The position numbers were made by a program, and so were the translations under genes. From Candidatus Zixiibacteriota bacterium (GTDB taxonomy: Bacteria > Zixibacteria > MSB-5A5 > GN15 > FEB-12): 64,000 nt of DNA. Positions 43,798 through 62,416 of this stretch are shown here, in pieces. The stretch lies in NCBI GenBank assembly GCA_024278935.1, contig JAJRSF010000014.1:1-64000 (forward strand), written 5' to 3'. Each line of letters starts with the position of its first letter. Position 1 is the first letter of the stretch. Under the pieces are notes generated by a model that was given only the letters and a program-made list of their open reading frames with translations, was not told where the DNA came from and did no database searches.

Positions 43798-43850
43798 CAA
43801 TAAAATAATTATTTTATTGTCATCCCAGCGAAGGCTGGGATCTAGATTTT

Positions 43851-43900: not shown

Positions 43901-44035
43901 AAAATATCTTTTAGATACAATTCGTTCACAGTCGTCTAATATATATGGGCATCTTCATACACAAACAGTTTGAAGATACCGGCAAACCATTCAAAAGTTG
44001 ACAAAGTAGGGAATTATCGTATCTTAATGTAACAT

Positions 44036-44092
44036 ATGAGCATGAACTCATAAGATGAGCATGTACTCATAATATGAGCATCTGCTCATAAA
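44036..44092 (+). repeat. Three tandem 19-bp palindromic units, each also a 5-codon ORF
   Basis: ATGAGCATGAACTCATAAG ATGAGCATGTACTCATAAT ATGAGCATCTGCTCATAAA. Confidence 0.92.
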
Positions 44093-44104
44093 TTGGAGGA
44101 GAAA

Positions 44105-47100
44105 ATGTTAAGAAGAACTATCAGTTTTATCTGTCTTATGATTATTATAAGTGGGTTTTCAGAAAAAGCAGTATCGTTGGATAAAAACTCTCAAGATGAC
44201 AACTATAAATTTAATTCATCGACCTATTCCACAAGTACAGAGTCAATAGCAATCCCCGAAATTCAATGGCCTCTAAGTATCGGTGTTCAGCGAACAGGCA
44301 AAATCAATGCATCTTTCAACGACCAAGGTCAGTTTGGAACTGGGTTTAGTGATTTTAACTCTACGCCAAGTATATCTTTTGAAACTCCTTCGTACTCAGG
44401 TTTAGAATATCTTTTTGGCGGTCTTATCTGGGTTGGTGCTATTGTTGGAAATGATACATTAGTATCTACCGGAGCCGATGGATGGCAAGGAGGTTATGAA
44501 GAATTTGGAGCTGATAATACCTTTGATCCTAATCTCGAAAAATTACAGTTTCCATCAGATTATTCAATGAGAGCTGAATTTACAGACACTGTTATTGATG
44601 GTATCCAGCTGGATTTCTCAAGAGGGACTCCGCATATCCCTCTCAACGTAAAAATTGCTAATAGGTCTCATATCTGGCGTGTTGATACTTTGGACAATGC
44701 TATTTTCTACGACCTTCTTATAACCAACATTGGTGACCAAACTCTTGAACAAGCGTATATCGGCTTCTATTTTGATTGTGATGTTGGTCATACATCTATG
44801 TCTGGATATGAGAGAGCCAGCGATGATCTTAGCGGCAGTTTAAGAGATAACGGAATCGCTTATATAATTGATAACGATGGTGACCCATCTGCTGGTTCTT
44901 TTAATTCAACTAGTCCTACAAAAGCTTTTGCTTTCAAACTGCTCGCATCATCTTTTCCAGTAATAGATACAAACTATAACTGGTGGGTTAGCGGAACAAG
45001 TGATGATACTGATTTTGGACCAAGGTTACGAGGTATCCCCGAAGATCCTTTCCGAGATTTTGGTACTGGTTTTATTGGAACTCCAATGGGGGATGCAAAT
45101 AAATATTATATAATGAGTCATAAAGAATGGGACTATGACCAATATGACATCGCAACAATAGGTTCATCTGACCCTGACTGGATGGAGCCAAATCCATCAG
45201 GAGTTACTTCTTTGGCAGTAGGAGTAGATTCAAGATTTCTCTATTCCTTCGGACCATTTGATTTAGCACCGGGACAATCAGAACGAATTATCTTTTCAAC
45301 ATTTACTGCAGATTCAATTCATCAAGACCCAACTAATTTAGACAATTTACCACACAATCCTACCGCCTATAAAGCTAATTTAAATCTTGATAATATTGCA
45401 TCTATCGGTTCTGCTATAATTCAAGCAGTAGACTCTATATTAAATCCATTAATACAACCTGCATGGTTAGAAATTTTTGACTATAACAAAATCAGCTTTG
45501 ACCCATATGTCTTTGATGATGTCACCGGCTACAATGTCTATGCTACTTCGGTAGATGCTTCGGCTTTTACATTTCCGGGTGCAATCCCACCATGGTATAA
45601 ACCGACATCGCCATTTTATGTCGGAAGTTCAATTGATTCTGTATCTGTCGATACGCCCGATGGCTTAACCGCTGTGAATGTCAGCTATACATCTGTCTTT
45701 GGCGAAAGTGAATTATCGCAATCAGCCTTTATAAATATGCCAGCCGCTGTTACACCAACTATCAGAGAGTACTCTACAACAACTACAGAGTCGTCAGTTT
45801 TACTTTCGTGGTATATCCCTGACACTGTCTTGCAACCTGACCATTTTAATATATATAAATTCGCTAGCTATGATGACTTCAAACAAGTGTATAGCAAACC
45901 GTATTATAATGAAGGTTCTCCAAATAATTTTACTACAGATAGTATCGAAGTAGATGGTACCTGGTGGTTCTACCAATCAACAATAGATACACCGTATACT
46001 GTTGTTGATGGAAATGAAAGAGAATTTATCGAGAACAATTTTGATGAGGAGTTCATCTATATTATTGTGTCAGTCGATCAGTTTGGATTTGAATCTGGCT
46101 ATGCAACGACAACTACATACCTCATGCCCGAGAGAACCAAAGATTTATTGATCATTATAAATTCCGAAGTTGCCACACTTTCTACATCTGCTAATCTGAT
46201 AATTGATTATTACAATGCACTCTTACAAGGGTCAGGAATTAGCTATGAATTCTTCTCAGTCTTAGATAGCTCCAGTGCTGCAGCATGCCCGTCGGTTTCG
46301 TACTGTCCAACATGGCAATTCATGTCTGCATATGATTATGTTTTAATAGATGAAACCGAGTATGCCGACCAATATTGGAAATATGAAATACTTTCGTTTA
46401 TAACAAACGGGGGGAAGCTTATTAACTTCGGAGCTCTATCGGAATTTAACTATAACAATCATAGTACAACTCCGGGATGGTACGATAATAATTTTTTGAA
46501 CAAAACAATGTTTGGAGTTGATTCAATTTTTAACATGGGGCATCTCTATAATTATCCAAACCCAATCGAAGAAAACAGATTTGGTTTTAATGTTGCCAGA
46601 AGCGAAGGCGGTCTTTTTGCTGATTTACAATGCGATACTGTTCGTTTCCCGCTAGATCCTAAATGGCAGATTATCGTAAACGATAACCCAACCAACGAAC
46701 CTCTGCATGTGACAACATTTATGCCATCGGAAAATTCTGTCGTCACTCATCGTTATAATTCTTTATACCCTGCGACATCGTACATGGAAAATATGGCGGT
46801 CGGACTCAAACATGTATTCAGCGATGGGTTTGACTCAACCGAAGTGTATACCTATGGATTCCATTTATATTATATGCATCTTAATCAATCAAGAGATCTG
46901 CTTGGAACTATCTTAGGAGTAGTTATCGACACAACTTTCACCTGTTGTATACCACCAATACGGGGCAATGTCGACAGCGACTTATCTGAACAAATTGATA
47001 TCTCAGACTTAGTATATTTGGTAGACTTTATCTTTACTAATGGACCTCAATCTGTCTGCAATCAAGAAGCAAACATTGATGGTGATATCGGAGAGCATAT

Positions 47101-47173
47101 AGACATCTCAGATTTAGTTTACTTAGTAGACTTTATTTTCACAGGAGGCCCCCCCCCACCAGGTTGCTTCTAA
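44105..47173 (+). CDS. Large secreted protein with C-terminal dockerin-like double repeat
   Basis: SD GGAGGAG then MLRRTISFICLMIIISGFSEKA; C-terminal PIRGNVDSDLSEQIDISDLVYLVDFIFTNG...HIDISDLVYLVDFIFTGGPPPPGCF. Confidence 0.88.
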   Translation: MLRRTISFICLMIIISGFSEKAVSLDKNSQDDNYKFNSSTYSTSTESIAIPEIQWPLSIGVQRTGKINASFNDQGQFGTGFSDFNSTPSISFETPSYSGLEYLFGGLIWVGAIVGNDTLVSTGADGWQGGYEEFGADNTFDPNLEKLQFPSDYSMRAEFTDTVIDGIQLDFSRGTPHIPLNVKIANRSHIWRVDTLDNAIFYDLLITNIGDQTLEQAYIGFYFDCDVGHTSMSGYERASDDLSGSLRDNGIAYIIDNDGDPSAGSFNSTSPTKAFAFKLLASSFPVIDTNYNWWVSGTSDDTDFGPRLRGIPEDPFRDFGTGFIGTPMGDANKYYIMSHKEWDYDQYDIATIGSSDPDWMEPNPSGVTSLAVGVDSRFLYSFGPFDLAPGQSERIIFSTFTADSIHQDPTNLDNLPHNPTAYKANLNLDNIASIGSAIIQAVDSILNPLIQPAWLEIFDYNKISFDPYVFDDVTGYNVYATSVDASAFTFPGAIPPWYKPTSPFYVGSSIDSVSVDTPDGLTAVNVSYTSVFGESELSQSAFINMPAAVTPTIREYSTTTTESSVLLSWYIPDTVLQPDHFNIYKFASYDDFKQVYSKPYYNEGSPNNFTTDSIEVDGTWWFYQSTIDTPYTVVDGNEREFIENNFDEEFIYIIVSVDQFGFESGYATTTTYLMPERTKDLLIIINSEVATLSTSANLIIDYYNALLQGSGISYEFFSVLDSSSAAACPSVSYCPTWQFMSAYDYVLIDETEYADQYWKYEILSFITNGGKLINFGALSEFNYNNHSTTPGWYDNNFLNKTMFGVDSIFNMGHLYNYPNPIEENRFGFNVARSEGGLFADLQCDTVRFPLDPKWQIIVNDNPTNEPLHVTTFMPSENSVVTHRYNSLYPATSYMENMAVGLKHVFSDGFDSTEVYTYGFHLYYMHLNQSRDLLGTILGVVIDTTFTCCIPPIRGNVDSDLSEQIDISDLVYLVDFIFTNGPQSVCNQEANIDGDIGEHIDISDLVYLVDFIFTGGPPPPGCF

Positions 47174-61391: not shown

Positions 61392-62416
61392 CCGAAACTA
61401 CGGTTGAAAAATCAGAACCTACCCAACAAGAATCTGCCACAAAAACACAGGTACAAGGCTTCCCTCCCCCAGCTCCGCAGCAACCTACGCAACCTGAAAA
61501 ACCTGCTGAACAGGTAACTCCTGCACCTGTAAGTGAACCTGAAAAACCTATCGAAACAATAGAACCGACAAAGTCGGCTGAACAGGCAATGCCTGTCGAA
61601 GAAGCAAAACCTGCTGAACAGGCAAAACCTGCTGAACAGGCAAAACCTGCTGAACAGGCAAAACCTATCGAGACAATAGAACCGACAAAGCCGGCAGAAC
61701 AGACAAAACCTGCTGAACCGGTAACTCCTGCACCTTTAAGTGAACCTGAAAAACATATCGAAACAATAGAACCGACAAAGTCGGCTGAACAGACAATGCC
61801 TGCTGAACAGGCAAAACCTGACGAAGAACAGAAACCGACAATGCCAACACCTGCACCTCTGCCGAAGCCTCCACCATTACCTCAAGTGAATAGAGAACAT
61901 CAGCATACAAGTTCTGAGAACCATAAGAATCATGAACAGGTAATGCCTGTCGAAGAAGCAAAACCTGTCGAAGAAGTAAATCAGGCGAAGCCTGTAAAAC
62001 CGACAATGCCAACACCTCCGCCTCTACTTAAGCCTCCACCATTACCTCAAGTGAATAGAGAACATCAGCATACAAGTTCTGACAATCATAAGAATCATGC
62101 ACAGGCAAAACCTGTCGAACCTCGAAAAACTCCACCGCAAATGCCAACACCTCCGCCTATACTTCCACCAAACCCGGAAGTTATGCGACGGAACCGTGAA
62201 GAGCAGGAGCGTCGTTTGAAAGCGTTGCAGGAACAGAAACAGCAACAGCAAAACGGCGATGATACTTCTACAAATGATTCAACTGAGAGTAGTAATTCTT
62301 CTGACGGAGAAAATCGTTCGGAGCAGAACAACCAATCTTCTCATGATGGAAATCAACAGCAGAACAATCAACAGCAGAATTTCCAATCAAGAAGACATAA
62401 CCGAAACAAACGATAA
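61374..62416 (+). CDS. Low-complexity P/E/K/Q-rich tail, probable C-terminal extension of PyrF
   Basis: Frame open from before the A7 run 61367-61373 to 62416 with no start or SD in 61392-61588; track ORF begins at an internal repeat ATG (61589). Confidence 0.65.
61600..62105 (+). repeat. Nested coding tandem repeats
   Basis: 18-bp GCAAAACCTGCTGAACAG units, and a ~105-bp unit (MPTPxPLxKPPPLPQVNREHQHTSSxNHKNH) present twice, near 61840 and 62005. Confidence 0.85.

Follow-up and report, generated by a model that had tools for sequence, protein, structure and literature searches.

In a genome of Candidatus Zixiibacteriota, a promoter for a gene encoding a secreted, dockerin-tailed protein is followed by three tandem 19-bp palindromic units, which are probably three operators in a row; the repressor bound to them would be a dimeric helix-turn-helix protein, most likely from the TetR family. 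The array is a real cis-element of an already known kind, found in a new place. The first-pass annotation of the window (the whole 64,000-nucleotide stretch analysed) had offered three explanations, namely a triplicated operator, an RNA structure hiding the Shine-Dalgarno (SD) sequence, and tandem leader peptides. Tandem pairs of this dyad are a mark of TetR-type regulator promoters in unrelated bacteria, which supports the operator; the other two explanations fared poorly.

The Promoter, the Array and the Downstream Gene

The features discussed below are as follows (coordinates refer to the window).

43998..44003, + strand: -35 hexamer TTGACA; the same pair is found upstream of three homologous genes
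44020..44025, + strand: -10 hexamer TATCTT; predicted start at about 44031-44033, an inferred position
44036..44092, + strand: whole array, three 19-bp units, at about +3 to +60 as counted from the predicted start
44036..44051, no strand: operator-like dyad 1, ATGAGCATGAACTCAT, half-sites ATGAGC and ATGAGT
44055..44070, no strand: operator-like dyad 2, ATGAGCATGTACTCAT, half-sites ATGAGC and ATGAGT
44074..44089, no strand: operator-like dyad 3, ATGAGCATCTGCTCAT, a perfect 7-2-7 palindrome
44095..44101, + strand: SD sequence GGAGGAG of the downstream gene, duplex energy -9.3 kcal/mol
44105..47173, + strand: target gene, starting with the ATG at 44105, for a secreted 1022-aa protein with C-terminal dockerin-like repeats

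The promoter pair, TTGACA-16-TATCTT, spans 43998-44025. It is credible because three genes of relatives that are homologous to the target (L018, L023, and L024) are preceded by identical hexamers, again 16 bases apart. The promoter-like pair that had been noticed from 43998 onward, the SD sequence near 44095 and the ATG of the dockerin-tailed gene are all present. A Pfam scan of the target protein returned no match. Used as a query, the protein matches 67 places in the genome (G000), mostly through the C-terminal dockerin-like repeat alone; in other words, this genome encodes dozens of dockerin-tailed proteins that are otherwise varied in sequence. Upstream, a terminator-like hairpin (ATCCCAGCGAAGGCTGGGAT, 43822-43841) follows lpxA and forms the boundary between the lpx operon and the dockerin gene. 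Elsewhere in the window, a proline-/lysine-rich repeat protein of the AEQAKP type is encoded by several tandem repeats of 18 bases (61577-61980).

The units of the array lie at 44036-44054, 44055-44073, and 44074-44092, and Tandem Repeats Finder (TRF) describes them as a repeat of period 19 with 3.1 copies and 87% matches, so that sequence and program agree with the earlier description of three tandem palindromic units between the promoter pair and the SD/ATG. The pattern ATGAGCATNNNCTCATAA has three exact matches in the window against an expectation of 0.27 when up to two mismatches are allowed, and three exact tandem units set against this expectation are judged not to be a product of chance. 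Every unit contains an ATGAG-N6-CTCAT dyad. The annotated ATGAG...CTCAT arms are therefore present throughout, whereas the extended perfect palindrome is confined to the third unit (ATGAGCA-TC-TGCTCAT); in units 1 and 2, the symmetry is perfect in the outer five bases only. Likewise, the claim that variation is concentrated in the fourth codon of each unit holds in part, because the varying positions are 9-11 (the end of codon 3 and the start of codon 4) together with linker base 19. All six ATGAG arms are intact, and conserved arms with variable centres fit what is expected of sites for a dimer. In the six half-sites, base 6 is always C or T, and the next base is A in five.

Uniqueness of the Array

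In the 3.4-Mb genome there is only one further exact ATGAG-N6-CTCAT, and it lies inside a coding region. We also examined 23 weaker dyad sites as possible further members of a regulon; none is at a regulator promoter, and most are inside genes. A dispersed repeat or mobile element (REP/MITE) was rejected because the genome holds no other copies of the array.

Among relatives, none of the 133 further genomes of the phylum that the search covered contains a dyad pair with any spacer of 1-9 bases. Within the order, no 19-bp-spaced pair turned up, even when two mismatches were tolerated. In three genomes of the same genus, the stretch after lpxA is other DNA and the target gene is missing, and homologs of the dockerin gene with about 40% identity have no tandem palindromes upstream; conservation in front of orthologs is thus not a measure that applies cleanly here. 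Given these absences, the array is, as far as the genomes compared can tell, local to one species and one gene.

Such a distribution, together with the lack of an array at homologous genes whose promoters have identical hexamers, is what one would see if a palindromic 19-mer had been duplicated locally by chance and had no function. We consider this improbable, because the units differ from one another in the centre and the linker while all the arms are spared, and because the sequence matches sites that are enriched beside regulator genes elsewhere.

The Same Dyad in Other Genomes

A scan of 85,462 species genomes (a 264-Gb collection) for paired ATGAG-N6-CTCAT found 49 loci, compared with about two expected, an estimate made by base counting (4^20 and nine spacings). 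TetR-type open reading frames (ORFs), which were sought with a profile built from ten adjacent regulators, abut the dyad pair in 16 of the 49 loci and are the commonest neighbour; these loci belong to the Actinomycetota, Chloroflexota, and Eremiobacterota, and many of them come from related Actinomycetota. TetR_N is also the commonest Pfam family (n = 11) among 47 neighbouring ORFs scanned. Several loci (L051, L071, and L074) have the layout typical of a repressor promoter, with TTGACA, a dyad, a TATAAT-like element, and a second dyad in succession.

The half-sites resemble those of the array closely. Base 6 is a pyrimidine (ATGAG-Y) in 64 of 64 TetR-linked half-sites and in six of six in the array, as against 40 of 92 in the loci linked to neither TetR nor the Acidimicrobiia group described below, and the base that follows is mostly A in the TetR-linked half-sites. 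The 16-mer of unit 3 is identical to sites in the TetR-linked pairs L077, L087, and L090 (Micromonospora and Nonomuraea), and the dyad of unit 2 is one base away from ATGAGCATGTGCTCAT, the commonest site of the TetR-linked Nonomuraea and Catenulispora loci. The nearest arrays are accordingly those of Nonomuraea, Micromonospora, and Catenulispora (L065, L077, L078, L085, L087, L090, and L097), in which the same 16-bp dyad, of the form ATGAGCA-NN-TGCTCAT and in some cases letter-for-letter identical, stands in tandem. They differ in having two copies at a 21-22 bp period and a TetR gene, whereas here there are three copies at 19 bp and a dockerin gene. The periods of the TetR-linked pairs as a whole are 17, 20, 21, 22, 24, and 25 bp, and none is 19 bp.

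Other loci found in the scan have neighbours of different kinds. On a Saprospiraceae contig (L058:711-774), three tandem ATGAGTAnnTACTCAT-type dyads with a 24-bp period (three times 8) lie upstream of a ParG-like gene that adjoins a ParA gene, probably as a partition-site or operator array. Ten loci, Acidimicrobiia and related ones (L052, L054, L057, L064, L069, L075, L088, L089, L095, and L098) have two dyads at an exact 17-bp period with a common flank; one of them (L095) is beside a Gp49/HigB-type toxin gene, and these arrays are probably autoregulated toxin-antitoxin promoters. In a member of the Peregrinibacteria (L094:307-343), two ATGAGY-N4-RCTCAT dyads precede lexA and may represent a LexA box that has not been described for these bacteria. 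Because the ATGAG...CTCAT core also occurs at lexA, ParG-like, and toxin loci, the core alone is no proof of a TetR-type reader. A literature search on the exact motif found nothing relevant.

Mini-ORFs and RNA Structure

Each unit can also be read as a five-codon ATG...TAA ORF (MSMNS*, MSMYS*, and MSICS*), each in a different frame, just as the first-pass annotation described. These mini-ORFs are a by-product of the palindrome symmetry. When a 16-bp dyad opens with ATG and closes with TCAT, its final T is base 1 of codon 6, and the two chance bases that follow decide whether a stop codon (TAA, TAG, or TGA) arises, which is expected in 3/16, or 18.75%, of cases; a five-codon ORF is in fact present in 37 of 196 ATGAG-N6-CTCAT units (18.9%; both strands of 49 unrelated loci). 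The best SD duplex energies of the three mini-ORFs are +0.6, -1.9, and -1.9 kcal/mol, resembling random ATGs (mean -1.4), compared with -9.3 for the real gene. The proposal that three tandem translated leader peptides couple or attenuate the expression of the downstream gene can point to the three readable ORFs, the last of which stops just before the SD sequence. It is nevertheless scarcely credible: there is no SD sequence on any of them, the ORFs occur at the chance rate in other arrays, the first ATG would sit a few bases from the predicted transcription start, and the peptides differ from unit to unit and contain no run of regulatory codons, so that both hallmarks of a leader-peptide attenuator, a ribosome-binding site and regulatory codons, are absent from the mini-ORFs. 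This is a general trap, since palindromes that begin with ATG and end with CAT create short ORFs on paper, and a mini-ORF within an operator should be taken for a leader peptide only when a ribosome-binding site accompanies it.

At the RNA level, the leader folds with -26.6 kcal/mol, compared with a mean of -18.1 for shuffled sequences (z = -2.76). It does not hide the SD sequence, whose mean unpaired probability is higher with the array (0.63) than with shuffled arrays (0.44), and an SD-sequestering RNA switch was rejected for this reason. A 5' stabilising hairpin is possible. Its proposed form makes the whole array one long hairpin, in which unit 1 pairs with unit 3 and unit 2 forms the tip, and which stabilises the mRNA or tunes its translation; the folding energy speaks for it, and so does the predicted 5' end of the transcript, which would be a few bases away. 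We give this stem-loop only a small probability as the explanation of the array, because such folding is common to any tandem palindrome array, the inner positions of the arms in units 1 and 2 do not pair within their own unit, and the SD sequence is left open. Moreover, Rfam gave weak sub-threshold matches only, none of which covers 44036-44092, and related copies from which covariation could be read are absent among the genomes searched.

A Probable Triple Operator and Its Possible Reader

The repeat and its symmetry, its location behind the promoter, the fact that it is unique, and its agreement with sites that adjoin TetR genes in other genomes can be read directly from the DNA. Three exact dyads stand at one promoter, and there is no counterpart at a regulator promoter elsewhere in the genome. 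As in TetR operators, the dyads are short (about 14-17 bp), have symmetric half-sites, and lie near the promoter that would be controlled. On this sequence evidence, the array is probably the operator of some dimeric protein, and the chances that a TetR-family protein in particular reads it are about even. We infer that a protein binds, what kind of protein it is, that it represses rather than activates, and that a signal releases it.

The array would thus act as a cis-acting DNA element immediately downstream of a sigma-70-type promoter. One dimer would occupy each 16-bp dyad, contacting half-sites of the form ATGAGYA on either side of two central base pairs, and the 19-bp spacing would place neighbouring dimers about 1.8 helical turns apart, where cooperative binding is possible. 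With repressors bound, the stretch from about +3 to +60 would be covered, so that promoter escape or early elongation would be blocked, and a signal that released them would switch the dockerin gene on.

The right operator of lambda, with OR1-OR3, likewise has three dimer sites in tandem at a promoter, which resemble one another without being identical. The array differs from it in spacing, sequence, and regulator, and has no divergent promoter or regulator gene. Within the TetR family, a close published parallel is SCO7222 of Streptomyces coelicolor, which represses SCO7223, leaves footprints on three copies of TGGAACGNCGTTCCA, and forms three protein-DNA complexes (PMC3511530). Its three palindromes, like those of the array, are nearly identical, vary in the centre, and lie by one promoter (PMC3511530). 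The half-site differs, however, and the SCO sites fall into two groups whereas the array is one tight tandem; furthermore, the gene for SCO7222 is divergent and adjacent, whereas no regulator gene adjoins the array. QacR and CprB provide a further parallel, since more than one dimer of these TetR-family proteins binds a control region, and does so cooperatively (PMC4150764). There, two dimers sit on one overlapping site, whereas the dyads of the array are separate and in tandem.

The TetR assignment would be firmer with a TetR gene next to the array or a TetR gene elsewhere in the genome carrying the same site, and neither was found in the assembly, which is 95% complete: no regulator gene adjoins the array at this locus, and the array dyad is missing upstream of all four TetR_N genes that were found in the genome (C37:1541, C33:89025, C45:45276, and C33:171226). 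Operators may, of course, be far from the gene of their regulator. One of the TetR genes in this genome (L115) has a perfect palindrome, ATGACTA-AC-TAGTCAT, about 240 bases upstream of its TetR_N domain (G000:C33:89425-89440). This site shares the 7-2-7 build of the array units but not their sequence, and is probably the operator of L115 itself.

The same DNA could instead be read by another dimeric family, such as an Xre-type antitoxin, LexA, MarR, ArsR, or a ribbon-helix-helix protein. Pair arrays do precede lexA (L094) and, in three copies, the ParG-like gene (L058), the Acidimicrobiia array L095 is near a toxin gene, and the lexA promoter of this genome has one ATGAGCA half-site in its spacer. 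We regard a reader from another family as somewhat unlikely, because a pyrimidine at base 6 is an unbroken rule for the TetR-linked sites only. A LexA (SOS) box was rejected, since the genome's own lexA promoter has that half-site only and no full dyad (best score 1.7, compared with 25-28 for the array units). An ArsR/SmtB operator was rejected as well; the ArsR promoters checked have no such dyad, and the genome's ArsR genes lend it no support.

Significance

More specifically, a densely packed three-dimer operator with a 19-bp period in the initially transcribed region might give steep, all-or-none control of one secreted dockerin protein, by a regulator that has this single target in its genome. 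We think this whole reading unlikely, but if it were true, the array would be a one-gene switch for the display of an extracellular protein in a little-studied lineage. In any case, the array provides something concrete to test as the control element of one of the many dockerin-tailed proteins that this lineage secretes.
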